A stretch of DNA of 64,000 bases from Sialis fuliginosa (Eukaryota; Arthropoda; Insecta; Megaloptera; Sialidae): contig OY540813.1 in assembly GCA_961205875.1 (NCBI GenBank), forward strand, positions 2,079,001 to 2,143,000. Reading direction: 5' to 3'. How positions within the stretch are numbered: position 1 is the stretch's first letter; each line of letters opens with the position of its first letter. Below the pieces are notes generated by a model, which saw nothing but the letters and a program-made list of their open reading frames with translations, was not told the DNA's origin and ran no database searches. Both the position numbers and the translations under genes were made by a program. Shown here one piece after another: positions 3,601 to 63,021 of this stretch.

Positions 3601-3683
3601 GTCTGAATCGGCCCCTTTGTCCGCCCCTGGACATGTAAATGTGACATATTCGTGACATCTTTTATGTACTACAAAACTGCAAA
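3601..3683 (-). CDS. Pkc53E: Conventional protein kinase C, 83-nt exon 3 (end of C1A and C1A-C1B linker)
   Basis: On the minus strand an acceptor (TTTGTTACAG|TTTGC) and a strong donor (TCAGAC|GTAAGT) enclose 83 nt. With the single base carried from exon 2 it reads [20 protein letters not shown], then ADKGADSD, residues 73-100. It completes the C1A ligand set: Cys74, His79, Cys82 and Cys90, giving the full HX12CX2CX13CX2CX4HX2CX7C pattern over three exons. The linker after Cys90 is the acidic, hydrophilic stretch that precedes C1B in this family. The exon ends on a codon boundary. Human PRKCA exon 3 is also 83 nt by family knowledge. The next exon, C1B, should start with a residue pair like PR and was not found between 1 and 3600, so intron 3 is at least 3.6 kb. 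Confidence 0.95.
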
Positions 3684-3759
3684 CTGTAACAAAAAAACGA
3701 CATAAATTTATTAGTTAATAAATCATAAAATTATATAATATTTTTCTTATAATTTAAAT

Positions 3760-4093
3760 CAGGGGTTCCCAACATTTTTGTACCCAAGAGCATACTATAA
3801 AATACCGATTTATATATTTTTTTCATATGAATAGAATTTTCAACAGAATCAAAAAAATATTAGATTCAAATTTACCAATAAAAATATATTATATTTTCTA
3901 TAAATTAAATCAGGGGTTCCCAATATTTTTATAACCAAGAGTATATTATAAAATACCGCAAATTTATAGTATTTTTCTTCATATAAATAGAATTTTAAAC
4001 AGAATCAAAAAATATCAGATTTTGTAATTTCGTTTTAAAATCTTATTTAAAGTGGTGCCATAGTGTATGCGGGTATAGGGTTGAGAACCTCTG
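3760..4093 (+). mobile_element. hAT-type non-autonomous element with internal duplication
   Basis: Ends are CAGGGGTTCCCAAC and GTTGAGAACCTCTG, imperfect inverted repeats. The 8-bp duplication ATTTAAAT is present at 3752-3759 and 4094-4101, the hAT hallmark. The first 151 bp are repeated in tandem (second start at 3911). It lies 76 bp from the PKC exon 3 acceptor. Confidence 0.8.
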
Positions 4094-4439
4094 ATTTAAA
4101 TTAAACACATGGTATATTTTAATTACTTATTATTTCTAATTATTTTATTATTAACCCTTATTTTCTTTATTGTTTGGTCCTTGGAAACTAGGATATACAA
4201 TAACATACATACATAGCATGTCCCTTAAGTAAAGTACCATGTTGCAGGTAAAACTACGGATAATTTAAACAGTTATAAATTTTTGGACTATTATTTTATG
4301 GGTACAAATTTACGGGACACATATAGTTTTAAATGTATAGTTGGTGCACTCTTAGGCAGTACCGGCTTTAGGGTGGGGGGGGGGGGGGGGCGAACCAATT
4401 TGAGATAAATATAGTAAATAATTTAGAACTAAAAAAAAT

Positions 4440-4512
4440 GTTTAAAGAAATTCCCTAACTTTCCCTGACCACTTTAGGCTTCCCTGACTTTCCAGAAAGT
4501 GGACACCCTAAT
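4440..4512 (+). repeat. CCCTGACTTTCC repeat-family fragment
   Basis: Shares CCACTTTAGGCTTCCCTGAC and GTGGACACCCTAAT with 34020-34310 and 48290-48580. It looks like one end of a short dispersed element. Confidence 0.55.
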
Positions 4513-4914
4513 TACGACCATACTGTATGTACTAATATCACAACAAAACATGTGTTAACTCCACGAACGGTATGTTTTCGTTTTCGATTAAAACGTTTGC
4601 TAACAAATTGTATTGAAAATAAAATTGAATCTCATATGAAAATATCATCTCTATTCAAATTGCGACGCTTTTCCCAATTCACTAACATTTTATTTGAATC
4701 CGTTCATTCATCGGGATGCTTTCAATTACAATAAAAGGCAGAGGTACTTAACCTGAGGGGTCGGTGTCCCCCTTAAAAGGCTCATATCCGTTTCTGCATG
4801 CACTAATTATTCATTTTTATTTTTTTACGTATTTGGTTGAAAAGTGACTTTTTCATACGAAAATTAAGGCCTATCCTTCCAGAAAATTAGCTGAATGATC
4901 TCGAAAATCTTTAC

Positions 4915-5145
4915 TTTTTTATACCTTGTATATGAAATATAAATAAGTATAGTAAAGCCGATTTTTTTCGAAATCCGGATTTTGATGGAATTATCCATTT
5001 TGGCCTTCCCTTAATCCATTCTGACTATTTTCGCCATTATGGTATATGTGTCTGTCTGTCGGTCTGTGAGCGCTGTAACTCAGATACGACAAATCATAGA
5101 CGGATGAAATTTTATATTTAAGATTAATTTTTTTGTTCCAAAAAT
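4915..5145 (+). repeat. Dispersed repeat, copy 1 (TTGTATATGAAATAT family)
   Basis: Contains CCTTGTATATGAAATA, TTTTTCGAAATCC, TTAATCCATTCTGACTATTT and CTGTCTGTCGGTCTGT. The same order recurs at 59925-60180. No coding capacity is seen. Confidence 0.65.
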
Positions 5146-5300
5146 TCATTTGATATAATTTTATCTATAGTTTATGTCCCATTCATTTTATTCTATCTTA
5201 TTAGTTTGTCAGAAATGTTTTAATAAAATAAGAATGTTGTTAGGATTACGTATAAGAAAGTCCCGTGGTTCCCAAGGCAGATATTTTTATTTATTTTAAA

Positions 5301-5503
5301 CTAGTTGTTAACCGCGACTTCGTCCGCGTGAAATTTGTATTTTTTTAAATCTAATTGATTTTTTTCGGGATACAAAGTAGCCTATGCCCTTCCTTAGTAT
5401 GCAAGCAATCTCCCTGCAAAATTTCATTAAGATCGGTTCAGCGGTTTTGCTGTGAAAAGGTAACAAACAGAAAGACAGAGTTACTTTCGCATATTAGTAT
5501 GGA
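5301..5503 (-). mobile_element. Short Helitron-like element (203 bp)
   Basis: On the minus strand it starts TCCATACTAATATGCGAAAG directly after an A and ends with a hairpin, CGCGGACGAAGTCGCGG, followed by TTAACAACTAG and then T. Start TC, 3' hairpin, CTAG end and A/T insertion site are all Helitron traits. It is far too short to encode a Rep-helicase. Confidence 0.8.
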
Positions 5504-5726
5504 TTATTAAATTTTTTTAAATATAGTTTTTATATGAACGCTATAAAAGTTTGAGAGCTTCTGATTTAGGAAATAGGATTCCCACAACAAAAGCTTGTAT
5601 ATTGTAATTTTGTTTTATTCTTCGATACTTGAACTGAAATAATTTACATATAACAATAGTTTTTATTGCTTAAGAATACTATATTATACTAATCTAATGG
5701 ATAAAAAAGATAAGCAACATTGGGAG

Positions 5727-6082
5727 CGTTCACGTCTGACCAAAAAACGGAACAACGAGCTTTGATTGGTTGATTCATGGAACTTCTGGTGGAATGTACC
5801 AGAAATTAAAAGAATGTCATTTTTTAAGCATGTAAAAGTGAGAAAGAAGTAACTATAAAGAGATAGAAACTAGTGACCAGGCTAACCAAAGAACTTATAT
5901 GTTCACTTCATGTTGAACGTTTCTGCCAGAACACTAGTTTCTATCTCTTTATGGTTACTTCTGTCTCACTTCCTTACTCGCTTAAAAAATGGCATTCTTT
6001 AAATTTCTGGTAGATTCCACCAGAAATTCCATGAATCAACCAATCAAAGCTCGTTGTTCACTGTTTTTGGTCAATCGTGAAC
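5727..6082. mobile_element. 356-bp palindromic MITE in intron 2
   Basis: CGTTCACGTCTGACC at the left is mirrored by GGTCAATCGTGAACG at the right. Inner blocks such as ACTAGTTTCTATCTCTTTAT also match across the centre near 5905. The arms are diverged and no clear target duplication was found. Confidence 0.7.
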
Positions 6083-6427
6083 GTGACCAATAAAAACCAA
6101 CGTGCTTTTTTACGTAGAACCCCGCTTTTATAATTATTATGTCGAAAATAAAAAAATATGTGAAATATTTTAAAATGAAGTAAATCTTATATTCTGATAT
6201 ATGTTGCTTACTTTATAATCACCCTATGTGTAAATGTATAAATACAATACAGTACAAGATGATTCATTTCGGAGATTAAGCACCGGAAACATCCGGAATT
6301 ATTGTGAAGAGATTTGTTTTCAGAATCACCCATGTTTGAAATCATAAAATTTAAATAATCTGAATGTTATGGGTTGTTCTGGACCAAAAACGATTAACTT
6401 CATTTTAATATTGCTTTCTGAATCAGA

Positions 6428-6560
6428 AAAAAAATTGTTCTCTGATTTCAAAATGTTAACTTGATCTTTCCGTTTCAGGTCAAGACAAACACTTTGCTTT
6501 CCGTGTCTGTCTGTCTATCACCTGAATCCTTGTCACACGCATAATTTATAATGAAACTGG
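6428..6560 (-). repeat. AATATCGGTTCAGTGG family, copy F (partial)
   Basis: Reverse-complement fragment with TTTCCGTTTCAGGTCAAGAC, CGTGTCTGTCTGTCT and ATCCTTGTCACACGCATAAT. Confidence 0.55.
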
Positions 6561-6764
6561 TTTGATTGAATGATCGTTGTAAGCAATTTTCAAATATATT
6601 TAAATAAATATGATTTAAATGTAAAATTTCATAGAAAATAATGAAAATTAGTGTTTCTACGGTAAGTCATGAAACTACTTCTTATTTTCTTATCTTTAAA
6701 TTGATATTTCTATGAAAAATTTTAATTTGAACAATGAAATTTGACAAATTTTTTTTGGGTTTTA

Positions 6765-6885
6765 GATTTCGTTAAAAGTATGTTTTTATATTGTTATTAT
6801 ATAGAAAATTACGCGAAAAGTTGAAATTTTCAAACCGCAGGTCTGTATCTCAAACCGTTCTCGAGATATGACCTCTCAAAGTTTT
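6765..6885 (+). repeat. Solitary half-arm of the large palindrome family
   Basis: TTTCGTTAAAAGTATGTTT, ATAGAAAATTACGCGAAAAG and CAAACCGCAGGTCTGTATCT follow in the same order as the left arm of the full copies, then stop within TCAAAGTTTTAAG. No opposite arm follows, so it is a truncated copy. Confidence 0.75.
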
Positions 6886-7304
6886 AAGTACTTTTAATTG
6901 TTTTTTGGTAAAGAATGGGTTGCTAAAATAACCCAATATTGGTATCAAATATAATTGTCACGGTGTAATTATAAATAAATTTTTAATAAGTCTGCTTGGC
7001 TGAAAATGGCGACAATGTGATAACTCTTACTGGAGGAACTCTAAGTAATACTAATTTTTATGTAACCCTGATACTTTTTTCCCGAAAAAAGACTTTCCTT
7101 CCTTCTACAAAATACAAAACTCGACTGTTTATTCACCATTTTCATTTAAAACACAAGCGCACGTACAATAAGTAAATAAACATAGACGGAGACCGAAGAT
7201 ATTCTACATTAAAATTATTTATTCAGGATGGTTTTATGAATATTTAAACACGTTGCCCAAGGGTGCCAACACACTACTGGGAATAAACAGCACAAATGTA
7301 TTAC

Positions 7305-7336
7305 CTTGACATTGGTAGCCCTGCTTGCCGAAACCC
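7305..7336 (-). CDS. Pkc53E: Conventional protein kinase C, 32-nt micro-exon 2 (centre of C1A)
   Basis: On the minus strand the sequence reads TTTGTTACAG|GGGTTTCGGC ... CAATGTCAAG|GTAATA. The acceptor and donor bracket 32 nt. Joined to the TG left by exon 1, the frame reads W-GFGKQGYQCQ and ends one base into the next codon. This supplies Cys71, the third zinc-binding cysteine of C1A, with the required 13-residue spacing after Cys57. From knowledge of the family, vertebrate PRKCA and PRKCB also have a 32-nt exon 2 encoding the same segment, so both size and phase look conserved. It sits 55,500 bp downstream of exon 1 and is far too short for ordinary ORF calling. Its recognition rests on peptide match, splice sites and phase together. 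Confidence 0.95.
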
Positions 7337-8524
7337 CTGTAACAAACAATATAATGTTAATATAATATAATATTCAAATAAATTGATTATTTATCTACTA
7401 TATGTAATATAATAACATTTGTTCAAGTACTATCAATATTGAATTTGTTAAAATGTTAATGTAGTTACACATGTGAAATAAATACAGTAATAACTCCATT
7501 TACGCGGTTAATTGGTTCCATGAAAACAACGCGTAAATGGAACAATCTGTTTTACTGTTAACCAGGGACGTATTTCTAAATTTTGCGCCCTGGGCGAATT
7601 TTTTTTTTAATGTCAAAAACTTAGTATAAACAAAAGTTTAGCAATGAGTGATTTCAGGATAAATTATTTGAGAGCAAGGATTATTAGAAATAGGATAGTT
7701 CGCGTGATTATTTTGTAGTATAGTCCAGGCTGTGGAGGCTAAAACAGGTTATTTTAAGGTACAGTTTTGCTACTCACAGGATTTGTTACAAAATTGATTT
7801 ACAATAATATTCTAAGTTTTATCTGATTTTGGTTATCTGCGTCATGAGTAAACCAATTCTTCAGATTTTCTGATTTTTCTTAAATACCGGTCTAAATAAG
7901 TATTATACAAAAAAAAGTTTCAAATAAAAGTTGTTCGTTATAAAATTCCCTACAACCTCCATTTGAAAAAAAAAAATGTATATTAAAACATAAACAAACA
8001 AATAAAATTTTCATTCGATATTTTACGAAGTAATTATAAAATTAATTCATATTTAAAGTAATCAAATTTGACAATTTGAGTGAAAAGTATAAAAAAAAAA
8101 CTGTTTAAAAAAATATTTTTGAAACATAAGTTCCACACACGTTATAACTAATTACCATTCCAAATCCCGCCGCTCCCGGAGTTTTCACCGGAAGGAAGCG
8201 GTTCCCGGATGAGCGGGGCGTGTTCCGGGATGTGACTCCCCCCCCCCCCCCCCGGCACTCTTTCAACGTAGGAATCAACCGTTTACAATTATTATTGGTA
8301 ATCTGATGTTTAGAAAATTTCCTGAAACCCTGTCTTTTCAATTGATACAAATTGGTTTTCCGATATTGATACGATAAGATTCGAAGGGAAATATTAATAT
8401 GGTAAAATACAGTGAAGCTTGATGGACATGAATGGAATATGAATTATAAAAAAGTTGAATTCAGGGAAATATGGATTTTTGCGATTTAAAAAAAATATGG
8501 AAAAATTTTTAGATCAGAAGTAAT

Positions 8525-8713
8525 GAAATCAAATCTTGATAGATCTGCATTTTGAGACAAAATTATATTTATATTGATCTTTTGAATCTCTATCACGATC
8601 TACAACAATCTTTAGAGATCGTTGTAGATCTTTGCAGGTATCCACAGATCAAAAACGAGTGAAAAAATATGAGTTTGTCTCAAAATGCAGATCTATCAAG
8701 ATCTGATTTGATC
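8525..8713. repeat. Short foldback repeat
   Basis: GATCTGCATTTTGAGACAAA at 8543-8562 is the reverse complement of a segment near 8673-8692, with matching ATCTTGATAGATC flanks. The arms are about 38 bp with a loop of about 110 bp. Confidence 0.65.
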
Positions 8714-9179
8714 ACCACATCTTGTGTTAGGATTTAAGGAAGGATATGTTTGTATTGAAAAATATCATCAAATTACCAGGTTATAAAATACAATAAGGTG
8801 GTCTTTAAAAAATCGTTTCTGTATGGTTCAATCAAAATCTCATATTAAAAAAAATCCAATTTTTTTTTTTTTCTGTATGAATGTAGCTATTGTCAAGCGT
8901 ACTCGATTTTTTGACTGATTTTTAACAATATAGTGGCTCTTGAAAAAAAATTACTTTCTTGATAATTTTTTACATTCAAGGGACTTTAAAAAATGTTATT
9001 TAAAAATAATTACGAAAATTTCCACTAACAAAAATAAAAATCAGACTATTAATGTTAAAGTTTTCGCTTGGACAAGTTTGAAAAAAGTGTGCCGAGAAAA
9101 ACGCGATTAAAAGTTTAAATACATATTTATTAATGAATAAAATAAAAATAAAAAATATAAAAAAAAAACCTAAAGAAAC

Positions 9180-9565
9180 TCAAAAGTATAGAATAATTCA
9201 ATTTAACAGTTTTTGAAGTCGGTTTTATTTTTTTATTTCCAAAAAAAAATTTTTTTATTTGGCACCGACGAAAAAAATTTACATTTAATAATAATTATAT
9301 ACATATCAGCGTTTTTATTTATTTTTTTCTTATAATGTTTATTTTTATTTTTCCTTTCTGAGTGACGTATCTTCCAAATTCATGGTCAGATTCTGATAAA
9401 ATTTACATAGGACCACCTCTGGAGTATATTCTTCCAAACAAACAAAAAAACATCAAAATCGGTTCATATTTATTGGAGTTATACCCTTCTCCTTTTTTGA
9501 AGTCAGTAAATAAAATTATCAAATTCATATCAATGATAATAGAAGGAGTTATTCCTTATTAGTAA
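9180..9565 (+). repeat. Dispersed repeat (GAGTGACGTATCTTC family), copy 1
   Basis: GAGTGACGTATCTTC, ATGGTCAGATTCTGAT, AAATTTACATAGGACCACCT and the CAAACAAACAAAAAAACATC stretch recur at 29440-29545 and 45880-46010. The 66-residue frame here is a by-product of the repeat. Confidence 0.65.
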
Positions 9566-10038
9566 GTTATTTAGGTGAGAAATAATCATAGACAGTATTA
9601 GATGTGCAGTTCGTAATCCCCCGTTGGCGAACAGAAAATCCCATTATCGGCCATTGTTGGCTTCAGCAGGTCACATAGCTAACTGAATTACCACTCTGAG
9701 AAACCCCGTACAAACATACATACATTTATATTATATATTAGTCAGTATGTAATGTTTATTATAGGTTTATCATACCGGATGAATTAAAAGTAACGAACAT
9801 TATTCAAATACAGGATGATTCGAAAGTATGGCTTTGATTTTTGCATTGAATTTTGTATTAAGAGATTTTCAAATGCCATGAGTGTCATGGGACTTTCTTA
9901 TACGTATTACAGAGATTGAACAGTGTGCGTGTTTGCCATAGGGGGACTTTCTTCGTGGGTGGTTCTAATTAATTATGTAAAAAAAATATTTGTGGCTAAA
10001 TCATAAATGATAATAATATACTCGGTTATTTTTATCTA

Positions 10039-10529
10039 AAACAATTTCAATCTAAATCTAAATTTATGCAAACGTCAAAATGACAGTTAATATATCAATT
10101 TAAAAAAACAAAACACGAATTTTTAAAATAAATTGAGATAAATCTTTGTAAGGGAATATTTTACAACAAATGTTGTAGATATTCTATAAAATTTTCACGT
10201 AACATGTGTCGTTCTTGAGATATCTTGAAAAAATAAATATTTTGGGGTGTCACCCCTCCCCCTTACACACGATTTTGAAATGGAACCACCCTTAAGCCAG
10301 ACCCAACCATCCGACCAAGTTTCAATAATATCGGTTCAGTGGTTCATAAGTTATGCGTGTGACAAGGATTCAGGGGACAGACGGACACACGGACACGGAA
10401 CGAAAAGTGTTTGCCTTGACGTGAAACGAAAAGATAAATTTAAAATTTTGAAATCGGAGAACATTTTTTTTGTCTCATTCTAAAACGATCACAAAGCTTC
10501 TCGTATCTTCGATATTGCGCAGAAGTAAA
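10039..10529 (+). repeat. Dispersed repeat (AATATCGGTTCAGTGGTTCA family), copy A
   Basis: Ordered blocks: AATTTCAATCTAAATCTAAA, GGGAATATTTTACAACAAAT, ATCGGTTCAGTGGTTCATAA, GTTATGCGTGTGACAAGGAT and TTCTCGTATCTTCGATATTG. The same order recurs in at least five other places in the window. No reverse transcriptase or transposase frame is present, so the class is unknown. Confidence 0.7.
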
Positions 10530-11124
10530 AAGTGAAAAGTAGTGAACTTGGTCACGTTGGCAACTGATGTATTTATCTCAATTTTGTAAACGATGAACTC
10601 TACAATCGGAACCAAAACAACCAGAAAATTAATTACAGCAACAGAGAAAGTTTTGTTTGAGTTAAAAAAAAAAAACTTTACCAACGCATATATTTTAACT
10701 CTCTATTGGAACAAACTCCAGAGTTTACAAATAAAACAACATTATTTCGAAAAAAAATATTGTTCGTAACAACGGGAGGTTTTTGCCCTTGCGTAGCCGC
10801 GGGGTAGTTTCTTAAAGAAAAAATATATTCCATATTTCTTCACGCCAAATTAAATAAAACTCGATTTTGTAAATAACTCGACAGAAATTAAGTTAGTTCA
10901 AGAAGGAACGCCTTATTTTTTATTTTAGGGGTAAGAAAGTGACGCTCTCTCGCTCAAAAATTGTATAAAACGAATCTGGTTATGTCGCTTTCATTTTTTT
11001 AACTTAATATTTACGACAGACGGTCAGAAAATATTGCTTTAATCTTTCATTGTCTTTTTCATGTACTTGAAAATAACTTCTTTGTTTTTTAAAGAAAATT
11101 TTATTATTTTTGAAGTGGGACTTT

Positions 11125-11850
11125 TTTACAAACAATAATAATAAATCCTTGTTCCATCGCTAACGTTTCTCGGTTTTAGTTTTGGTAACACAAAACTGAG
11201 CAAATTGATAATTTAAAACCACAAAATAATTAATAAACAGTGCAGGTATTAATGAAACAAAAATGATATTTACTTAGGCGTGACGTCATTCACTCTGATT
11301 GGTGTTCCATCTAACATGGCGGATTGCTGTATTTTGTGTTTTTAGTTTAACAAAAATTATATTAATCTCGCTTTTAATATAAAAATAAATTAGTCCAGTA
11401 AAAGAAGCATTTCGACATGAAATTTAGGAGGCAAGCAATTTTATGATTGAGTCTTATAGATTTTGAACCGGAGAATTCGAAAAAAAATAACCCAGACCAG
11501 CGAAAAGTGGTGCAACATCCTTAAAAATGGGGCGTAAGGGTGAAAATCCCATTTCCAACCGTTTTTTCAATTTATCACAAAATCTAAAGCAACGATGGTA
11601 TATTTTTATGGTTGATATATGTTCAGGACACTCAGACGAATCGATTGTGGCCACATATACTAAATTTGGCTAAAAATTACCTCTTCCAGAGGGCTCAAAA
11701 GAAATAGTTTAAAAATTAATAACTTTTGTTAAAATCATCCAAATGACTCGTAATTAATACATTTTTTAGAATCTTTTCAACCTATTTCATTATTTAAAAT
11801 CATTATTTCAGTGATACTTTGTTACTGGCATCATGCCTATTATAGTACAT
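11125..11850 (+). mobile_element. Dispersed element ending TGGCATCATG, interrupted by a 365-bp insertion
   Basis: TAATAAATCCTTGTTCCATC, CGTTTCTCGGTTTTAG, AACATGGCGGATTGCTGTAT and TGATACTTTGTTACTGGCAT match 45030-45369 in order. Between 11391 and about 11755 this copy holds extra DNA that is absent from the 45-kb copy. Confidence 0.75.
11391..11755. mobile_element. Unclassified 365-bp insertion
   Basis: The uninterrupted copy reads ATAAATACATTTTTTAG at about 45285-45301. Here the same sequence is split, with TAGTCCAGTAAAAGAAGC on the left and GACTCGTAATTAATACATTT on the right. AAT on both sides may be a target duplication, but this is not certain. The 66-residue frame inside is not recognisable. 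Confidence 0.6.
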
Positions 11851-12599
11851 ACTAAAGCCACCTCTGTGTTATTGTATAGGCAACATCGCTACACAGTATA
11901 CGTTAGATGAAAGTTATCGATTTGAGTTGTACTTAGGAAGCTCCATTAGAGAGGTGGTTAGCTTACATTAATCTTACCGCGGGCTAAATGGAATCAAACA
12001 TGATGACGGCTTTTTATTTTATAAATAAGGAATATTCCGAGCTTTTATTGTTATGTAGAGTCTCAACCACAACTTTACGCAGCAAAAGCTAAAAGCTTAA
12101 TAACGTGGGTTGTGTAAACCAGTGGTTCCCAAACACAACACGAAAAATTAAAATAAAAAAAAAATTTAGTCCAGTCTTGGTTAATACCTTAATACCCTAG
12201 CTTCCAGCGAATGCTATCAGCTAGGTGTTAAATTGTTCGATATTTTAAAGCAGAAGGGGGTCCCAGGGGGAAAAACAATCCCCTATCTTGCATTGGAGCC
12301 GAGTTATTTACGATTTTGTATAATGAATAAAAAAAATAAAACAAAAATAATTTTATATTTAATGCCCTGTTTACGTATGGAGGGTTGAAATTAGTTTCAC
12401 TCGATCCGAAAAAATTAAACAAATTTTTTATTTTATTTCACCCCCAGTCACATATGGAGGGTTGTAATTAGTTTCATTCGATGCGGCGAGAAAAATACCA
12501 CAGGCGTTGGGGTTTCAGGGAGGAAAACAATCCCCTATCTCGCATAAGAGCCGTGATATTTACGATTTTGTATAATCAATAAAAAATGTCACGTATTAG

Positions 12600-12638
12600 T
12601 TTCGAAATCCACGCGAGCGAAGCCGCGGGTATCAGCTA
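12600..12638 (+). mobile_element. Helitron-type 3' terminus
   Basis: CCACGCGAGCGAAGCCGCGG forms a hairpin and is followed by GTATCAGCTAA, a CTRR-type end. The DNA upstream (12240-12600) contains two related stretches built on GGAGGGTTG...TTAGTTTCA and ACAATCCCCTATCT. Confidence 0.65.
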
Positions 12639-12671
12639 ATAGCAAATAAATAAAACAATATAGTTATGATA

Positions 12672-12796: not shown

Positions 12797-13239
12797 TACC
12801 CAGAGAAGCCAAGATCCATATCAAGATCACCGCGGAAGCCTCAAGACTTGTATAAATAAAACAATAGTAATCGATATGGGTTCATAGACACCGCCGTTAC
12901 AAGCGGGTGTTCTAATGTAATTAACCTTATTCATTAACAAGTTTGTACCCAGAAGCCAAGTACCATATCAAGATCACCGCGGAAGGCTCAAGACTTGTAT
13001 AAATAAAACAATAGTAATCGATATGGGTTCATAGACACCGCCGTTACAAGCGGGTGTTCTAATGTAATTAACCTTATTCATTAACAAGTTTGTACCCAGA
13101 AGCCAAGTACCATTCCAAGATCACCGCGGAAGCCTCAAGACTTGTATAAATAAAACAATAGTAATCGATATGGGTTCATAGACACCGCCGTTACAAGCGG
13201 GTGTTCTAATGTAATTAACTTTATTCATTAACAAGTTTT
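12797..13239 (+). repeat. Tandem array, 147-bp unit, 3 copies
   Basis: TCAAGACTTGTATAAATAAA starts at 12841, 12988 and 13135, spaced exactly 147 bp. Units also share CATAGACACCGCCGTTACAA and AAGATCACCGCGGAAG. Copies are nearly identical, so the amplification is recent or homogenised. A 20-bp C run lies 64 bp beyond the end. Confidence 0.9.
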
Positions 13240-19578: not shown

Positions 19579-20406
19579 CGTTAGTTACCTTATCACTCGA
19601 GAACCACTTATCCGATTGACGTGTTTTTTTTTTTAATTCATAGGTACGCTCTCTGGCCAGGTTATAGGCTATATTTTTTTAGGTTAGATAACATAACAAC
19701 AAAGCAGTGACGATAATAGTAAATCAAGTCGGAAAAAATTTTGCCGTCGGCGCGCTGTTTTGTAATACGCTGCCTAAACCGTTCAATATAGAACAAAATA
19801 ATGTATTAAAGAATTGTGTAGAATCAAAAGTTCTACAATTAAGTCAGCGACACGATATGTCTAACTTTTATATTTAAGCCACAATGACTGCTTTTATGTT
19901 ACAAAAAAAACATAAAATATTTGGGTTTTGTTTACATGGACTTATGACCTGCAAAACATTAATCCTTATCGAAATAAATGATTTCATCGTCATAAGTACT
20001 TAATGTAGATATAGTTTGCCATTTACAGCATCCAATTTGGTCGTATAGTTTAGAAAATATCTTAAAATATATTTATAAAGGTAACATTTTAAATGTATGG
20101 TGTCGTGCCGCATCGAAGCGAGTACATCAGACTGGATTCGCTTACGTTCGGTAGATATTCGGAGTCCCTCGGCTGACGTTTGAGTTAATTTTGTTTTCAA
20201 TAATTAACATTTAAATTTAAACAGAACACAAATTATTTGTACTTTTTTCTTCTGATTCGTTTTTGTTAGGTAATTTAGGTATTGATAAATTATTATTACA
20301 ATAATAACTAATCGTGTTTGTACTTAATTAATTAAACTATATTTTTCAAAAATCCTAAACAATAATTCCGTAGTCTACGCGAGCGAAGCCGCGTGGGCCC
20401 AGCTAG
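19512..20406 (+). mobile_element. Non-autonomous Helitron, copy 1 (895 bp)
   Basis: Starts TCCTTAATATATATAAAGCT directly after an A and ends with hairpin CTACGCGAGCGAAGCCGCG, then TGGGCCCAGCTAG and T. A (TCTG)n run stands near the start at 19540-19577. It is nearly identical to 23227-24109 apart from run length and a few bases, while the outer flanks differ, so the two inserted independently. The 66-residue minus frame inside is not recognised. Confidence 0.85.
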
Positions 20407-20544
20407 TTTAGTATATATGTTAAGGCCTCTATACAACACCCAATCTGCAACACCCCCACTCTACCTCCCGACAAATCGGCCCTGCAGATTGGATGGTGTA
20501 CAGAGGCCTTTAGAGCTAATTGTTTTTGATTTTAATTAATTAAT

Positions 20545-23226: not shown

Positions 23227-24109
23227 TCCTTAATATATATAAAGCTCAACGTCTCTCTGTCTGTCTGTCTGTCTGTCTGTCCGTTAGTTACCTTATCACT
23301 CGAGAACCACATATCCGATTTACGAGTTTATTTTTTTAATTCATAGGTACGTTCTCTGGCCAGGTTATAGGCTATATTTTTTACGTTAGGTAACATAACA
23401 ACAAAGCAGTGACGATAATAGTAAATCAAGTCGGAAAAAATTTTGCCGTCGGCGCGCTGTTTTGTAATACGCTGCCTAAACCGTTCAATATAGAACAAAA
23501 TAATGTATTAAAGAATTGTGTAGAATCAAAAGTTCTACAATTAAGTCAGCGACACGATATGTCTAACTTTTATATTTAAGCCACAATGACTGCTTTTATG
23601 TTACAAAAAAAACATAAAATATTTGGGTTTTGTTTACATGGACTTATGACCTGCAAAACATTAATCCTTATCGAAATAAATGATTTCATCGTCATAAGTA
23701 CTTAATGTAGATATAGTTTGCCATTTACAGCATCCAATTTGGTCGTATAGTTTAGAAAATATCTTAAAATATATTTATAAAGGTAACATTTTAAATGTAT
23801 GGTGTCGTGCCGCATCGAAGCGATGTACATCAGACTGGATTCGCTTACGTTCGGTAGATATTCGGAGTCCCTCGGCTGACGTTTGAGTTAATTTTGTTTT
23901 CAATAATTAACATTTAAATTTAAACAGAACACAAATTATTTGTACTTTTTTCTTCTGATTCGTTTTTGTTAGGTAATTTAGGTATTGATAAATTATTATT
24001 ACAATAATAACTAATCGTGTTTGTACTTAATTAATTAAACTATATTTTTCAAAAATCCTAAACAATAATTCCGTAGTCTACGCGAGCGAAGCCGCGTGGG
24101 CCCAGCTAG
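23227..24109 (+). mobile_element. Non-autonomous Helitron, copy 2 (883 bp)
   Basis: Same start, body and CTAG end as the copy at 19.5 kb, with a shorter TCTG run (23257-23280) and about ten scattered differences. Flanks are A before and T after. Confidence 0.85.
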
Positions 24110-24420
24110 TATTAATATATACCATACTCAATCAAATTATTCAAATACGGGTAAATAAACAAACAACGTAGGTCTGTCTGATTCGTATAGCAAATTATCT
24201 AAAGAGATACAACAATATTGGGAGGTGTTGTACAAACGCCCGCGTCGTGACGCCCAGCGTCAACACCCCCCCCCCCTTCCCCCCAAACCCCTCTCGTTCA
24301 TACTTTATTTGGGTAACAGTATCATATCCACCTTTTATCTGGAATGATCGATTCTCTCCCTTATAATCAAGTCAAGAGATTAGCCTACTTCATTGAAAAT
24401 TGAATTTTTCTTAAGGAGTA

Positions 24421-26010: not shown

Positions 26011-27003
26011 AATTTTAAATGGGCTAAAAAATTTTTTTGTAATGAGGTACCACACCAAAAAATTCTGTTTCTGTTGTCTTTACCATCCTCCAAAGGCTGT
26101 CCATTATTTTTAAAATCATCCTGTATAAGTACACATATTTATACTTATAAAATATTTTGAATTTCATATTAGGTACATGGGCTGCTATGGACATTGTTTA
26201 CATATTCTCTACATTGCTTTGGAGACTTGAAACTGGTAATGTTATACGAATACATTATTTTATTATTAACTTTATTTCAAATTTTTATGCAAATAAAAAT
26301 TTTCTAAAGAAATCTTAATAATAACAAAACATTTACATATTTAAATTGTTTAGATTTTCAGTTTTCATTTGATACCCCACTCGTTTGAATAAAAAAATTT
26401 TTTTTTTGGTAAGTAACCCTTTTGTCCCCCTTAAAAAGTGTCAAAAAATTAAAATTTTATTTTTATAAATCAGGTATATTATTGATCCACAATTTACTAT
26501 AATTACGCCAAATCTCAGATATATAGGTCAAATAGTTCGGTAGCTAGAAGGCTGACAGACGGACAGACAGACATTGTTAATCGGACGCCAAATTGTAACA
26601 AATATTTTCTAAAAAAAATTGGGGGGGGGGAGGGGTAGACCTCCCCGTATTTGTCAATATACACTATTTAATTTAACAATTGTGATACACATAAAAAAAA
26701 TTACCAAAAATAACCCCCCACCCCCGATTTTTTTTCTGGGTGCGCCAATGTAACTAACTAATTAAAACGATATTTCAAAATGGTTGTATATTATTTACTG
26801 TGTAAATGTATAACTTAATAACAACGACTCCGTTTGATTTACATATACAAGATTTAATTACCCCAATTAATGATTTGTTTTTCCATCTAGCTCACTGGAA
26901 TCATCGCTAACGCGATCACAGAGCGAAGCAACGGGCGTTCAATTTCCTACACTGGACGACTAATTTGATTTTAAGCCGTATATACGAATGTCCCGCCCGA
27001 CAA

Positions 27004-27603
27004 TTGAGACATTTGACAGCTGTCACGGTTCATTTTGTGTCCAAATAAATAAAGAAAATCTACAAGTTGTAATTCATAATACAGGCTGTTTCTTAAATAA
27101 CCAACCATACTCATTATTTGGTTTATTTGAAACAAAAATAGTTTTGTCCGGAAATTAAAACATTTGACAGCTGTCACGGTTCATTTTGTGTCCAAATAAA
27201 TAAAGAAAATCTACAAATTGTATTTCATAATACAGGCTGTTCCTCAAGTACCCAACCATACTCATTATTTGGTTTATTTGAAACAAAAATAGTTTTGTCC
27301 GGAAATGGAAACATTTGACAGCTGTCACGGTTCATTTTGTGTCCAAATAAATAAAGAAAATCTACAAGTTGTATTTCATAATACAGGCTGTTCCTTAAGT
27401 ACCCAACCATACTCATTATTTGGTTTATTTGAAACAAAAATAGTTTTGTCCGGAAATGGAAACATTTGACAGTTGTCATGGTTCATTTTGTGTCCAAATA
27501 AATAAAGAAAATCTACAAGTTGTATTTCATAATACAGGCTGTTTCTTAAATAACCAACCATACTCATTATTTAATTTATTTAAAACAAAAAAAATTTTGT
27601 CAG
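27004..27603 (+). repeat. Tandem array, 151-bp unit, 4 copies
   Basis: GACAGCTGTCACGGTTCATT (last copy GACAGTTGTCATGG) starts at 27015, 27166, 27317 and 27468, each exactly 151 bp apart. All units contain AATAATGAGTATGGTTGG on the minus strand. Minus-strand frames running through the units are a by-product of the repeat. The last unit diverges after 27570. Confidence 0.9.
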
Positions 27604-36296: not shown

Positions 36297-37066
36297 AACT
36301 AAATGATTCTACGTCTTATTCTCTTGTATTTTAGTCGATATTTGTATGACGAGTTGAAGTTCACTGCAGGAAATATCACTAAAAAATTTAGAATTTTTGA
36401 TTTCGTTAAAAGTATGTTTATTGTATAGAAAATTAGGTGAAAAGTTGTTTGTTTCAAACCGCAGGTCTGTATCTCAAACCATTCTCGAGATATAGCCTCT
36501 GAAAGTTTTAGTTTTTTCAAATTTTTGGAGAAAAAAGGCCATAACTTTTGAACGTGTGGTCGGATTTGATTTTAGTTGACGGATTTGAAATCAGCGTGTC
36601 AAAATCTATATAATGACATGTATAATACTTCAAAATCCGACAAAAAAATTTTGGTCAAAAATCGACATTTTTTTAAGGTATACCCCTTTGAATTTTTTCG
36701 ATTTTTCGCGAAATTTTTTTTCCCGAGTTTTAAAGTATTGTACATATCATTATATAGATTTTGACACGCTGATTCCAAATCCGTCAACTAAAATCAATTC
36801 CGACCACGCGTTCAAAAGTTATGGCCTTTTTTCTCCAAAAATTTGAAAAAACTGAAACTTTGAGAGGCTATATCTCGAGAACGGTTTGAGATACAGACCT
36901 GCGGTTTGAAACAAACAACTTTTCACGTCATTTTCTATACAATAAACATACTTTTAACGAAATCAAAAATTAAAAAAAAATTTGTGAAATTTCCTGCAAT
37001 GAACTTCAACTCGTCATACAAATATCGACTAAAATACAAGAAAATAAGACGTAGAGGTATTATAGT
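36297..37066 (+). repeat. Large palindrome (hairpin element), copy 2
   Basis: Full copy: 36309 (CTACGTCTTATT) pairs with 37054 and the arms match almost perfectly to a centre near 36682. It shares TTTCGTTAAAAGTATGTTTA just outside the inner block with copies 1 and 3. Beyond the right end, the next 200 bp (to about 37265, ending CTTCGCCACTG) matches the right flank of copy 3, so the palindrome seems to be part of a longer element. Confidence 0.9.
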
Positions 37067-46499: not shown

Positions 46500-47790
46500 G
46501 TAAAAGCTTTAAGAGAATGACACTCATGAGTAGCGTTAGGTTAGCATTGTGCTAAATGATGTTAAACTTACGTTTTCTAACCTTAAAACGCCTTGTTAAC
46601 CAAAATAAAAAAACACGTGTTTAATGCTTTTCAATGTACTCATACTACGTGTGTGAAAATTTCAAATCAGTGAATAGCACTCATGAGTAACGTTAGGTTA
46701 GCATTGTGTTAAATTTTCGAATGCGTTTTCTAACCTTAAAACACCTTGTTAACCAAAATAAAAAACACGTGTTTAATGCTTTTCAATGTACTCATACTAC
46801 GTGTGTGAAAATTTCAAATCAGTGAATAGCACTCATGAGTAACGTTAGGTTAGCATTGTGTTAAATTTTCGAATGCGTTTTCTAACCTTAAAACACCTTG
46901 TTAACCAAAATAAAAAACACGTGTTTAATGCTTTTCAATGTACTCATACTACGTGTGTGAAAATTTCAAATCAGTGAATAGCACTCATGAGTAACGTTAG
47001 GTTAGCATTGTGTTAAATTTTCGAATGCGTTTTCTAACCTTAAAACGCCTTGTTAGCCAAAATAAAAAAATACGTATTTAATGTTTTTCAATATACTACG
47101 TGTATGTAAAATTTTTAGAATATCAGCGAATAGCACTCATGAGTAGCGTTAGGGTAGCATTTTGTTAAATCGTGTTAAATTTTCGAATGCGTTTTCTAAC
47201 CTTAAAACGTCCTTGTTAGCCAAAATAAAAAAGAACACGTGTTTAATGTTTTTCGATGTACTACGTGAGTGCAAAATTTCAAGAATATCGACGAATGGCA
47301 CTCATGAGTAGCGTTAGGTTAGCATTATGCTGAATGACGTTAAACTTTCGAATGCGTTTTATAACCTTCAAACGCTTTGTTAGTCAAAATAAAAAAACAC
47401 GTGTATTTAATATTTTTCGATGTACTACGTGAATGCAAAGTTTCAAGAATATCGGCGAATGGCACTCATGAGTAGCGTTAGGTTAGCATTGTGCTGAACG
47501 GTGTTAAACTTTCGAATGCGTTTTCTAGCCTTAAAACGTCTTGTTAGCCAAAATAAAAAAAAACACGTGTATTTAATGTTTTTCGATATACTACGTGAGT
47601 GCAAAGTTTCAAGAATATCGACGAATGGCACTCATGAGTAGCGTTAGGTTAGCATTGTGCTGAACGGTGTTAAACTTTCAAATGCGTTTTCTAACCTTAA
47701 AACACGTGTGTTTAATCTTTTTTAATGTACTACGAGTGTGCAAAATTTCAAGAATATCGGCGAATGGCACTTAAGTAGTGTTACTTATCA
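46500..47790 (+). repeat. Tandem array, 152-166-bp unit, about 8 copies
   Basis: CACTCATGAG starts at 46521, 46678, 46830, 46982, 47134, 47299, 47463 and 47629, with a diverged ninth at 47768. The spacing is 152 bp in the middle and 164-166 bp on the right, so two unit variants were amplified separately. Each unit has GCGTTAGGTTAGCATT and, in most units, the palindrome AACACGTGTTT. A lone related unit stands at 17340-18085. Confidence 0.9.
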
Positions 47791-55481: not shown

Positions 55482-56020
55482 AGGTACTGGCACCAGTCTT
55501 GGATATGACCCCAGTAATGGTTATTTTTTAATTAAATGTACTGAATTAAAAAAATTTGTTGATATTTGATTACTACCATTTCTGAATGTTAATCTATATG
55601 CATTTAACTGTCTTACAGCGTGATTTAATGACAATCGGCCAATAGGTGTCAAAATGGTGGACATTTAAACTAATTATTAGTATAATTTATTTATTAATTA
55701 TTATATTATCATAGCAATTGCTTTACATTGTTTCAAAGAAGATTCTTTCTTTTATATCTTTTATGTCGTAGTACTTATCATTAGCAAGTGTCCATCACTG
55801 CGTGCTCTTTACTGATTTTACTTTATCCATTACTGGAGAAAAAAAAACATAAACAAAATAAAAAAAACTATATTTGCGGACTTTGGTAATTAAACTGATT
55901 AAATAAAGAATTACTTGTTTTATTAGTAACATGAGTTCATGAGAATTACAAAAAAGAAGCCCGTCAATCAAAAAACAGTAAATCTTGCTCTTATAGCGGC
56001 CATAACTGGTACCAATACCT
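55482..56020 (+). mobile_element. AGGTACTGG family, complete copy
   Basis: AGGTACTGGCACCAGTCTTG after TA, ending AACTGGTACCAATACCT before TA. It lies directly against the end of an unclassified element (about 55005-55480, GGGGACGGGCAGAAATGACC). Confidence 0.85.
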
Positions 56021-56639
56021 TACTTTCTTTATTTAATTCACATGAAAAGCAAAGAAGTTTCACTTCAACCGTGCGCTTATGTGGGTGAGGCATTACAACT
56101 TTTTTTTATATATAAATAAATTAATGTTTAATTAATTAATATACAGCTGTCTATAAAGTAATGATGCATTATTTATATAAATATGAAAACAATGAATCTA
56201 TCAGAATGTTGTCGTATGTAGTAAATATGTCGACGGATATGTTTATTAAAACATGTAGGTTTGATACTTTCACTTGTAGGTCACTGTTAAAGCGCAAGAT
56301 AGAACATGGTGGGTATGGTTAATAAACTCTAAACGGTTTGAACTTGAAATAAATATAGTGTGGCTTAAAAATAGCCACCTAAATTTAACAGCAGCAGAAA
56401 AGTGTTTCTTAAACTTTTCTATCGAAAATCAAAAAAAGTGTATTTTATTTTTACTTCGAAAATTTGTGTCCGTGATAAAACCAGATTCTAATTGTATCTA
56501 CTACCTTCAAAACGTAAAGAAAAGTTGTATTCCGCATGGCGGCTGTGCGTGTGTCTGGATGTAGAATTTTAGTACTGTAAAACTGCACTGAATTGAATTG
56601 TTTTTAGGGAAAATGTTTGTCTCATTGTCAATGAGTACC

Positions 56640-56875
56640 TACCTACTCCAGACTGTATATATTTTGGTGCTAATCGGATTAGGGGTTTTGGAAATATTTT
56701 TATCGTCTAAAAAGTGAACGTTGCGAGTATTATCTCACTAATTTTGATAAGACTTGGTACATTTGTAGTTCAATTGAACCTAAGTGACATTTATTATTTT
56801 TACTTGCCTAAACAGTTATTGAAGGGGTGAAAACCACCCTCAAAATTTGAATTTTAAATACTATATTAATATAAT
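56640..56875 (-). repeat. CACCCCTTTATTGG family, copy 2
   Basis: Reverse-complement copy with TGCTAATCGGATTAGGGGTT and CGTTGCGAGTATTATCTCAC, ending CACCCTCAAAATTTGAATTT. Confidence 0.7.
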
Positions 56876-57133
56876 ATAATGTGTATTCTGTTTTTGACAT
56901 TAGGACATTAGAAAACTAATATTTATAATACAAAGGTGAATTTTATTTCTGACAAATACCATTGAAATTTTTCATATATTAAAAATTATCTTTTATATGT
57001 AACAAAGGCGACGTCGCATTTACCAATTTCGCACACACTAATGAATGCCAATAAAAAACGATATCCTCGTGAATAAGCAGTACAGAAAAAATGTGACGCA
57101 AGTCAGAGAAAAAATTGTTTTAATCACATATAA

Positions 57134-57476
57134 GGGGTCATCCATAAATTACGTCACACGTTAAGTGGAGGGAGGGGGTTGACGAAGTGTGACATTGTGT
57201 GACAAGGGGTCCTAAATTTCGTGACATCACATTTCAAAATATAATATACTAGCTTATTTGTAGACGTTTTAAAGCTCTACAACTTTTCAATACAAATAAT
57301 TCATGTATTTCGGAACTTCTGTTTTAATTTAATAATTTTAAGGTGTAAAATTGCAAAATATATGACGTCACACTAGGTAGGGGGGGGGGGGTCACACAAA
57401 TGTGACCAGCTGTGACAAGGACGGGAGTGGGGTCAAAAATCATGAAATTCGTGTGACGTAATTTATGGATGGCCCC
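57134..57476. mobile_element. TAA-flanked MITE with GGGGTCATCCATAAATTACG ends
   Basis: Left GGGGTCATCCATAAATTACG and right CGTAATTTATGGATGGCCCC are inverted repeats. TAA is at 57131-57133 and 57477-57479, pointing to PIF/Harbinger-type integration. Internal GTGACAAGGGG/CTGTGACAAGG motifs and G12 at 57380-57391. No transposase. Confidence 0.85.
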
Positions 57477-58609
57477 TAATGAGATAATAATTATAATTTT
57501 TAGGTGGTTTTCGACATCGTTCTGAAAAATCCAGTTGATAATATTTAGTATGTTTTCTACTTAAATATATTTTTAATAGGTAAATAAAAATAGCATAATG
57601 TGCAGGTACTTATATCATCTACATAAAAAGTGGCCACTCTTTATAGCTACTTAACAAACTAGTTTGAAGTTATTTTTACCAAATACTTTGCATATTTATC
57701 CTTAAATAAAAATCACAATCGTTTTCCGAATAACTAAATTTACAACCCAACATTATTACACCAACATAATTATTTCTATACATGCAAGATATACTTTTAT
57801 GAATGAATTTAAGAAAATCATGTAACATGACCAATATTTGTATAAGTATATGCTATATTTATTTTTATTTTGCTAATAATAAAGTTATTTTCGTGTCGGA
57901 TGATATATGTTTTCAACAGTGTAACAACAAAAACTTCTGCGAAACTAAATTTGCTTTTCTAATTTACGCTCAGAAATAAAATTACTGTACGTGTTGCTCT
58001 GACAAATTAACAAATGCTTGTCACATAATAAAATAACTGTATATAAATTCTATTTTCAAAACTTATAATGGTCGTTGCTATATTAATTTTGTTTTACAAA
58101 AATACTTGTAAATGGACCACGCATCTGATTCGAAAACAGAGCCGTGTCAAAAGAAAGAGATAGAAACAGGTTTGGAATATACATGTCCTTTTCTTAAACA
58201 GGAGTGTAACTATTTCATTCTTGGCCCCGAACATTAAAAATATTCATAGATATAAATAAAGAGGTTAAAAAAAAAACAAATCAATCAATTATTGATTTCT
58301 AAATAATATAAGTTCCGAACTTTTTGACTCAATTTTAATATCTTGTTCATCCTTTTTCGTAGCTTCGTAATGTAACCTAATATCAAAAAAAATATTTAAA
58401 ATTGTGTTAAGTAAATCTTGTATGTGCTGTTTGTAAATGCAGCAATCCACCTCATCATTTTGTAGCAACCACATGGGAATTGATTTAAAACTATTTTTTA
58501 TTAATATTTATTTAATATTTTTGGTAGCAAAAAGGTTATTTTTCCGGAATATCCGTTCATAATTTTGCAAATTTCTATCAGATAAATTGATGTTTTATTT
58601 ATTTTAAAT

Positions 58610-59357
58610 AACTATAATACCTCTACGTCTTATTTTCTTGTATTTTAGTCGATATTTGTATGACGAGTTGAAGTTCACTGCAGGAAATTTCACTAAAAAA
58701 TTTCGAATTTTTGTATGTTTATTGTATAGAAAATGACGTGAAAAGTTGTTTGTTTCAAACCGCAGGTCTGTATCTCAAACCGTTCTCGAGATATAGCCTC
58801 TCAAAGTTTCAGTTTTTTCAAATTTTTGGAGAAAAAAGGCCATAACTTTTGAACGCGTGGTCGGAATTGATTTTAGTTGACGGATTTGAAATCAGCGTGT
58901 CAAAATCTATATAATGACATGTATAATACTTTAATATCCGACAAAAAAATTTCGTCAAAAATCGACATTTTTTTAAGGTATACCCCTTTGAATTTTTTCG
59001 ATTTTTCGCGAATTTTTTTTTTTCGAGTTTTAAGATATTATATATGTCATTATATAGATTTTGACACGCTGATTTCAAATCCGTCAACTAAAATCAATTC
59101 CGACCACGCGTTCAAAAGTTATGGCCTTTTTTCTCCAAAAATTTGAAAAAACTAAAACTTTGAGAGGCTATATCTCGAGAACGGTTTGAGATACAGACCT
59201 GCGGTTTGAAACAAACAACTTTTCACGTCATTTTCTATACAATAAACATACTTTTAACGAAATCAAAAATTCTAAATTTTTTAGTGAAATTTCCTTCAAC
59301 TCGTCATACAAATATCGACTAAAATACAAGAAAATAAGACATAGAGATATTATAGTT
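58610..59357 (+). repeat. Large palindrome (hairpin element), copy 3
   Basis: AACTATAATACCTCTACGTC at 58610-58629 is mirrored, with few changes, at 59338-59357. Arms of about 370 bp meet near 58984. It is in the same orientation as copy 2 and shares its right flank. Confidence 0.9.
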
Positions 59358-59510
59358 TTATAATTGAACGTGTAAATTAATATTTACATAAAGATGAATA
59401 TTATAATATTTTTAAATTATTTATTAACTGAAAACACAGATTTGTATTAATTTACTCATAAAGAAAGGGAAGCACTGCTTCCCCTGCTTCCATGGACGCT
59501 TCGCCACTGG
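59358..59510 (+). repeat. Right flank of palindrome copy 3
   Basis: Matches 37067-37265 with an internal deletion of about 45 bp after TTAATATT. It ends at the same CTTCGCCACTG terminus. Confidence 0.7.
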
Positions 59511-59614
59511 TTTATATTATTTACTTTTCTAATAAAAAACTTATTGCACAAAAATCACAAGATAGATATGCAAAAATATATCGGACAATGTTTAATAGGT
59601 TTATTACAGATTAT

Positions 59615-59655
59615 ATTTGTATCCCCGGGTAACACCGGGTCCAATGCGCTATAGT
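59615..59655 (+). mobile_element. Helitron-type 3' terminus (degenerate)
   Basis: CCCCGGGTAACACCGGG hairpin, then TCCAATGCGCTATAGT. The CTAG end seems disturbed. Confidence 0.5.
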
Positions 59656-59924
59656 AAGGTATATGTTATACTTAACAAAATCTTTATTGCCCGGTGTACG
59701 GTTCTGCCTAACCCATTTTTATGCGATTAATTAAAAAATTACAATTTCATTAGAAATATGTAGGAGACGCACTTATGGTTACATGTTTTTTAATCAATTT
59801 ATTAATAAATAGCACTTTATTTTCCACATGCTTCACTTAACTAATGAATGATGTATTATTAACATGGGTGAACAATTTATCACAAAATATACCCGTAAAT
59901 TTTTCCACGATATTTTTACTTTCT

Positions 59925-60180
59925 TATACCATGTATATGAAATATACATATAGTATAAGTAAGTATACTGAAGCCGATTTTTTTCGAAATCCTGATTTTG
60001 ATGGAATTATCCATTTTGACCTTCCCTTAATCCATTCTGACTATTTTCGCCATGATGTCTGTCTGTCGGTCTGTAAGCGCTGTAAATCAAATACGACAAA
60101 TCGTAGAAAGATGAAATTTTATATTTAAGATTAATTTTTGTCTGGGAAGAAAACGTCCTACTTTTTGAAAACGATCTTTC
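59925..60180 (+). repeat. TTGTATATGAAATAT family, copy 2
   Basis: Shares ATGTATATGAAATATA, TTTTTTTCGAAATCCTGATT and CTGTCTGTCGGTCTGT with 4915-5145. GGGACTTTCTTATACG motifs follow at about 60387, 60448 and 61629. Confidence 0.65.
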
Positions 60181-60540
60181 AACCGGATACGAATGTTTAC
60201 CTACGTCGATTTTTGAATTTTTCAAATTACTCTAAAACAGTGCGAAATAGAGTAAAATGGTCAAGTTAAAAATTGTAGGTAATATCAATATCTATAATTT
60301 ATGTTCTATTCATTTTTTCGTAAAAACGAATTTTTGAAGAAAAAAAATTTATTATAATTCAAATGATTCATAACAGAGTGTGTCATGGGACTTTCTTATA
60401 CGTATTACAGAGATTGAACAGTGTGTGTGTTTGCCATAGGTACTATGGGACTTTCTTATACGTAATACTGAGAGTGAACAGTGTAGATGAATCTAAAGAA
60501 AAATATTTTTGTATAAAAAATGAAAAAATATAAAAATAAC

Positions 60541-60583
60541 AAACAGACAGACAGATAGAGTTACTTTCGCATTTATAATATGG
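60541..60583 (-). mobile_element. Helitron-type 5' terminus
   Basis: On the minus strand ATATTATAAATGCGAAAGTA and ACTCTATCTGTCTGTCTG, the typical start sequence. The partner end is not clear. Confidence 0.5.
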
Positions 60584-62836
60584 TGTACGAACACATACAT
60601 AATATATTATACAATTACGAAAAACCTTGACAATTCGAAACGTGTAATTATAAAATTTAAAAAATAATAACTTGAATCTCCCAAACCGGTATTAGGTATA
60701 AATACTTTTATTTTAACTATAAAATATTGCAATTTGTAACTACCATACAGAAATAGGATACTTTTGAATGAAAATAAGTAAAAACTAGAATATGTATTAT
60801 TATAAAAATATTTTACGTAATATGCAAAAAGAAGACAGATACATAATAATATATTTATAAGTACTTATAAAAATATACATTATGTAAAATATGTGGGTAC
60901 CAACATTAAATTAGATTTCGTTATTTAAAATTAAAATTATCACAATTTTATCAAAATTAAATGCGGTTAAAAAGTTTCGCAATTTCTTAGAAGATAAATT
61001 ATTGTAATTATTATTAATTAAGTTAACTTTAATAATTATTATAATTTGACAATTGAAATGCAGAAGTGGTCGACCAGTTTTCATTGAAATTCGCTTATCA
61101 CAAACTTAGTAGGCTCCTCCCATTTGATTATTATAATATTTAAATAATTTCTCCATGTACTAAACAAAGATATTTTGAAACTCATTGGCTAGATAAAGAA
61201 GTACTCTTCGTTTATAATACTTATATATATTTGGGCGATTAAATTTATTATGTAATCTATTGAAAATTGTATAAGTAAATTTTGTGGCAATAAATATATT
61301 TTGATATTCCGAATTTTAGTATTTAAATATGTTAAACTTGATATAAAATTAATTAATGAAATGGACGTAAATTTGTGCTTTTATTTAAAATTATGTAACT
61401 ATATAAGCTCCGCCCTAGAAAAAGATGATGTTTGTCTTAATACTTTTGAATCTGTTGTAAACGATTCTGACCTTTACGGTGGCAGACGACTTCTGAAGCC
61501 GATAGTACATAATATTATCTGTACTGTGTAAGTGGGCAGAAAGAATAATTGGGCGTCACTACCAATTAATGTCTTTCCAATTTGAAGTAATTTAATTTTT
61601 AACAACCGACAGTAAAAAAAGATACCACGGGACTTTCTTATACGCTATACTTTCCGGCAAACTGTTAAAACAGAAAAAAGTAAATAAGACATAAATTATA
61701 GATAATAATATTCTCCATAACTTTTATCTGAAACTTTTTTCTAATTTGCACCTTGTCAAAAAATAATTCGAAAATTCAAAAATTGACAAGAGTAAACATA
61801 CGTTTTCGGTTGTAAGATCGTTTTCAAAAATATGAGGTTTTCTAAAAAAGGTGAAAATTAATATTTTAATTAAAATATTTTGTGTATCTAAATGGGAGGG
61901 GGGGAGGGGGGGGGGGGCTAAATGGTCAATATTTTTAATTTACACTGTATAAAAAATTTGATAGAAGCAAGATTAAAGAATAAGATTTAGATAAGTTCGT
62001 GCCCCCCCCCCCCCCCCCCCCCATTTAACCCTTTTAGCTACGTCCTTGTGTTCAACACAAGGTATTCTGTTCATTGTGAGTGTTAGTATGAATCAATAAT
62101 ATCAATATTTACATTTAAAAAGATAAATTTTGCGCCGTCTTTGTAGAAAATTGTTATTTTACATTCAATATCTCGTTTTTCATACAAAAAATTCTTCATA
62201 TTTTAGGTTTATTTACATAGGTATGTATATTACAGTTAAAAAAACTATCCATAGGCGTGACTACTGTGGGGGAAATGTGTCTTAAATAATAATTGTAGAG
62301 CTTCATAACAAAAGGAGACCGAGACGAGTTTTAGATAAATCTGTCTCGTTTCATGTAGAGCCCATTTTTTTTTCTCAAATAAATTTTATAATTCAATATA
62401 AACCTGTTTGCAATTATCGATATTTTTATCACATTTATTTAATATTTTTAGGTATTATGTGGTATGCGATAATTTTATAGTATTTTTACGTAATTAATAT
62501 ATGTTTATGTAATTTAAAAAAAAAAAAAGATTAATATTAAAACTATTAATAAATCAATGTGTATTATTTTAGTATCACTCACAGTTATGACAACTTGTAT
62601 ACTAAATTTAGATTTTGCTTAATGATACCTTATTTAAAACAATGAGGAGAGGGGGGTATAATTATTTTACATGTATTATATACGTAAAATATTAAATAAA
62701 TTAAAATATACACATGGAAATTACATTCAACAGCATATTTTGGACCGTATCCAAATCAATAATACCATTTATTTAGAGTGTAAACCGGGAAAAATCCTTG
62801 AAAATTGTACAACAATAAAAAACAAACTTTACTTAC

Positions 62837-63021
62837 CAAATGAAGTCTTTGCAGTGCGAACAGAAGGTCGGCTGCTTAAAGAATCGTGGCATAAATTTAT
62901 GACCCTTAACATTATAGACATTCTTTTTCTTAAGAGCGCCCTTTCGGCCCCTTAATTTGAACCCGAATTTAGAATCGCTGCCATCATCGTTATTTAAAGT
63001 ATTATTATCTTCCTCAGCCAT
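62837..63021 (-). CDS. Pkc53E: Conventional protein kinase C, coding exon 1 (N-terminus, pseudosubstrate, first half of C1A)
   Basis: This exon encodes residues 1-61 and two bases of codon 62 of a Ca2+/diacylglycerol-activated Ser/Thr kinase that moves from cytosol to membrane. Seen: an acidic N-terminus (MAEEDNN...), then the pseudosubstrate around residues 24-33, [10 protein letters not shown], where Ala29 stands in place of the phospho-acceptor and keeps the kinase inactive. The C1A zinc finger follows, with His41, then Cys54 and Cys57 in the HX12CX2C pattern and the family-typical run [17 protein letters not shown]. The exon stops inside the Trp62 codon at a strong donor (TTTG|GTAAGT, intron from 62836). 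The start is the ATG at 63021-63019 in a good insect context (GAAAATGGC); the TTG two codons upstream is not used. Catalytic, C1B and C2 regions lie outside the window. Assignment to conventional PKC is firm; Pkc53E rather than another insect paralogue is inferred. Confidence 0.95.

Follow-up and report, generated by a model that had tools for sequence, protein, structure and literature searches.

The conventional PKC locus

The window analyzed here is a 64,000-nt stretch of the 392-Mb Sialis fuliginosa genome (C5:2079001-2143000) and contains no N. Three putative coding exons of a protein kinase C (PKC) gene were located in it, all on the minus strand. Exon 1 (window 62837 to 63021, 185 nt) carries the ATG start and ends in phase 2 within a tryptophan codon (ATG...TTTG/gtaagt). 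It encodes the N terminus, including a stretch that aligned with ARKGALRQKNV of PKC beta and which we take to be the pseudosubstrate, followed by the first 22 codons of the C1A domain. Exon 2 is a micro-exon of 32 nt (window 7305 to 7336; ttacag/GGG...CAAG/gtaata) running from phase 2 to phase 1 and encoding (W)GFGKQGYQCQ(V). Exon 3 (window 3601 to 3683, 83 nt; ttacag/TTT...GAC/gtaagt) runs from phase 1 to phase 0 and encodes the end of C1A and a linker. The repeat-rich intron 1 (window 7337 to 62836) measured 55,500 nt, in agreement with the 55.5 kb given in a preliminary description of this DNA. Intron 2 (window 3684 to 7304, 3,621 nt) lies at C1 codon 32 in phase 1, a position common to other C1 domains of the genome.

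When joined, the three exons gave 300 nt, or 100 codons free of stops, with the complete pattern HX12CX2CX13CX2CX4HX2CX7C. The micro-exon would supply WGFGKQGYQC, the stretch of C1A that includes the third zinc-binding cysteine. Pfam identified C1_1 over residues 41 to 91 of the joined product (71.7 bits; cutoff, 26.5). Of the 43 solved sequences matched at an E value of ≤0.001, PKC beta (3pfq) was the best (E value, 6.2e−51), followed by the C1A domain of PKC gamma (4e−33); with respect to vertebrate PRKCA, PRKCB, and PRKCG, PKC beta and gamma are nearest to this C1A among solved structures. The proposal that these exons join in phase to give a complete C1A domain of a conventional PKC was therefore borne out by the canonical borders, the full Cys/His motif, the domain match, and the presence of the remaining conventional PKC exons downstream.

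To locate the remaining exons, the reading was extended 100 kb downstream of the window, with a further 10 kb taken upstream, and the downstream search used a PKC alpha query sequence. Exons collinear with PKC alpha were identified by similarity on the same strand as far as C5:2025579, and the frame of the last exon closes in TAA at the expected place. The gene thus extends on the minus strand from the ATG at window position 63021 (C5:2142021) to a stop at about C5:2025576, a span of approximately 116 kb. With the remainder of the gene following it on that strand, exon 1 does not stand alone. Beyond exon 3, the model continues with exon 4a (C5:2072613-2072502) or exon 4b (C5:2060515-2060404), each of 112 nt, running from phase 0 to phase 1 and encoding C1B, and then exons 5 (129 nt), 6 (154 nt), and 7 (229 nt); all are on the minus strand and bounded by GT/AG. 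Exons 1 to 7 joined gave 308 open codons whichever of 4a and 4b was used, and Pfam identified two C1_1 stretches in the product, followed by a C2 domain at residues 176 to 280. Exons beyond exon 7 were positioned by similarity alone. A kinase segment of approximately 100 residues scored 172.7 bits with 4ra4 ("Protein kinase C"), 170.6 with PKC alpha, 170.1 with PKC beta, and 144.8 with PKC eta, and Pkinase_C was found at the end of the gene (C5:2025606-2025728). The PKC alpha query left its residues 293 to 314 uncovered across the 174 kb searched, and the gene model is incomplete at that point. Overall, the gene is almost certainly the conventional PKC of this genome (Pkc53E/PRKCA type), with the three window exons as its coding exons 1 to 3 and the 32-nt exon as an ordinary exon between two old introns. 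Another candidate conventional PKC, lying near C5:1944000, was set aside on inspection, its kinase piece not appearing PKC-like to us.

Exons 4a and 4b shared 19 of 37 residues. Because the use of both, or of neither, breaks the reading frame, they are probably mutually exclusive. Like the S. fuliginosa gene, Drosophila Pkc53E encodes a conventional PKC with two C1 domains, and its isoforms vary in these domains according to PMC10318518. The reverse complement of a fly primer specific to isoforms C/E reads WQNVTF, resembling WETWTY of exon 4b, and that of the F/B primer reads EPFTYAG, with a weaker likeness to KLHTYGS of exon 4a. PRKCB is listed together with Pkc53E and pkc-2 in a survey of tandem duplicated exons (PMC9741552). 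By analogy, exons 4a and 4b probably represent a long-standing insect feature rather than a new one. Within the diacylglycerol-binding domain, they offer a choice of isoforms that can be put to the test, like the one reported at the isoform level for Drosophila Pkc53E.

A second 32-nt exon and the age of the structure

Exons 2 and 3 of vertebrate PRKCA are given as 32 and 83 nt in length, and on this basis the exon structure had been said to appear very old. Vertebrate PKC exon sizes were not found in the literature looked at, which makes no claim that they, or a PKC micro-exon, are absent from print. In PMC6537413, exon 2 of PKC theta is given as the N-terminal V1 region. For the fly, PMC10318518 describes a deletion of the first three exons of Pkc53E that takes 76 residues of isoform B, in which C1a occupies residues 45 to 110. 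In S. fuliginosa, exons 1 and 2 encode 72 residues and C1A begins at residue 41; the boundary of the fly deletion would fit an intron after the micro-exon.

Looking for the micro-exon in paralogs of the same genome gave an inexpensive test of its age. Genome-wide, 25 C1 matches were identified. The DNA around 22 of them was read (19 plus the 3 of the conventional PKC gene), and the other 3 were assessed from the match table, where they were unbroken over codon 22. Two matches end at the tryptophan codon 22 with TG/gt, one in the conventional PKC gene and the other at C9:19951034. The latter gene contains a 32-nt exon at C9:19954117-19954148 encoding (W)GLGKQGYQCQ, identical to the conventional PKC micro-exon at 27 of 32 nt and sharing its codon position, its phases, and the upstream donor (TG/gt) at the tryptophan. 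The phase at the start of the following exon also matches, and joining the pieces yields the same C1 pattern. The kinase segment of this gene matched PKC eta best (182.7 bits, versus 158.9 for PKC alpha), which assigns it to the epsilon/eta type of novel PKC. It thus resembles the conventional PKC gene in its 32-nt micro-exon, codon, and phases but differs in having short introns around that exon (3,018 and 1,803 nt) and a kinase nearest to PKC eta. Given this recurrence at the same place and in the same phases, the claim of great age gained support, and the 32-nt exon looks like an old feature of the PKC gene family.

The distribution of the two flanking introns accounts for the existence of so small an exon. 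A donor one base past codon 32 was found in 8 of the 25 C1 matches (two each on C4, C1, and C5 and one each on C9 and C10), and each of the two micro-exons has it at its 3′ end. The phase 1 intron at codon 32 thus occurs in many C1 domains of the genome, and the phase 2 intron at tryptophan codon 22 occurs in the conventional and epsilon/eta-type PKC genes. The micro-exon is the piece left between these two old introns, whose spacing is 32 nt. The C1A domain of a delta-type gene on C4 has the codon 32 intron and is unbroken through codon 22, lacking the first intron; therefore, either loss in that gene or two separate gains must be assumed. On the simplest reading, an old C1 intron at codon 32 was accompanied by one at codon 22 before conventional and epsilon/eta-type PKCs separated, and the delta type later dropped the latter. 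Two independent gains of an intron at the same codon and in the same phase are less likely. A more elaborate history would add to the loss in the delta type that the micro-exon, older than the split and kept in both lineages, was never absorbed as intron 1 of the conventional gene grew to 55.5 kb, possibly since frame-breaking skipping or inclusion of the exon sets the level of the kinase; taken as a whole, this history is a long shot.

Regulation through the micro-exon was also considered on its own. If the exon is left out of the conventional PKC transcript, the frame shifts and a stop follows after seven further residues, and skipping of the 32-nt exon in the epsilon/eta-type gene likewise gives an early stop. 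A skipped transcript would therefore be unable to make the kinase. Since 32 does not divide evenly by 3 and early stops arise in both genes, it could be argued that skipping acts as a poison event, with a decay-prone, frame-shifted transcript tuning the PKC level from either gene. However, the same is true of every exon with a length not divisible by 3, and the downstream 112-nt exons of the conventional gene also shift the frame; such regulation is considered very unlikely. The 32-nt exon is presumably an ordinary coding exon in constitutive use, and both it and the gene are ordinary, with nothing outside known biology.

Controls on the micro-exon and its detectability

Two controls were used to assess whether the micro-exon could have arisen by chance. 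In the first, all AG...GT candidate exons of 9 to 199 nt and of the right frame class were collected between exons 1 and 3 (n = 8,103). Of these, 1,082 stay open, and only 2 restore the Cys/His spacing, one of which is the micro-exon at 7336 to 7305. The other (10414 to 10383, also 32 nt) restores the cysteine alone, and its residues, QTLFVPCPCV, are unlike those of PKC. In the second control, the micro-exon residues were identical to GFGKQGFQCQ of PKC beta at 9 of 10 positions, whereas the highest identity reached by each of 200 first-order Markov sequences stood at 1 in 10 sequences, 2 in 129, 3 in 55, and 4 in 6. The 9/10 identity, compared with at most 4/10 in the controls, together with the candidate exon count, ruled out a chance match.

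The splice sites themselves are adequate and unremarkable in strength. By a simple consensus count, the donors of exons 1, 2, and 3 each scored 7 of 9, a value reached by 3.2% of GTs between exons 1 and 3. As the splice sites are not outstanding, the case for the micro-exon rests on its coding match, from which the splicing of exons 1 to 3 to one another is predicted.

With exon 1 and the micro-exon 55.5 kb apart across an intron full of repeats, and with a further 32-nt AG...GT stretch (10414 to 10383) restoring the cysteine spacing, the sequence at 7336 to 7305 could be a decoy or a second copy, with another exon within the intron used instead. This is extremely unlikely: the competing stretch has no PKC-like residues, and a search of the window with the micro-exon as the query gave an E value of 2.5e−6 at 7335 to 7306, the next matches being four residues within exon 1 (0.18) and alignments with gaps (5.8). 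The recurrence of a 32-nt exon in the epsilon/eta-type paralog also argues against a decoy. That the exons are a PKC fragment or pseudogene with no working gene is scarcely credible, for although the 64-kb window carries just 100 codons of the gene and no C1B, C2, or kinase exon, exons for these domains and the tail follow in order downstream on the same strand, the reading frame is open through exon 7 with each C1B choice, and the last exon stops where expected.

The micro-exon had been described as having no signal on the scale of an open reading frame, and indeed its frame is open for just 40 codons. Similarity searches detected it with an E value of 0.003 using a PKC beta query in the 64-kb window and of 0.84 using the PKC alpha query in 174 kb, and the 25 C1 matches listed across the genome did not include it. 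The earlier suggestion that automatic annotation would pass it over therefore holds for similarity searches run exon by exon on a whole genome; annotation programs that link exons or draw on RNA sequencing may behave differently. For annotation, its position is of practical value, as a gene model without the 32-nt exon loses both the zinc site of C1A and the reading frame.

Content of intron 1 and the remainder of the window

The window was also searched for other genes, including any nested in intron 1. Ten of the 20 longest stop-to-stop reading frames of the window (at least 90 amino acids) were compared with Pfam, and no match was found at an E value of ≤0.05, a comparison that short exons would escape. 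No RNA genes were identified in the window at the gathering threshold, no tRNA was identified there in a search under the bacterial code, and no relatives were found in viral contigs. A bacterial promoter scan of 62900 to 63700 was set aside as inapplicable to an animal gene.

Several repeats were found. Three related, long, near-perfect palindromes resembling fold-back mobile elements lie at window positions 1 to 524, 36308 to 37055, and 58713 to 59251, with arms of 237 to 371 nt that are 91 to 97% complementary and separated by gaps of 6 to 65 nt. Within intron 1, tandem arrays were identified at 12804 to 13238, 27002 to 27601, and 46521 to 47703, with units of approximately 147, 151, and 152 to 164 nt, respectively. 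Two further segments, 19675 to 20407 and 23377 to 24110, lie 3.7 kb apart, share 99 to 100% identity across blocks of 300 and 286 nt, and are each directly preceded by GTCT runs; they represent either a duplication of recent origin or a pair of young repeats.
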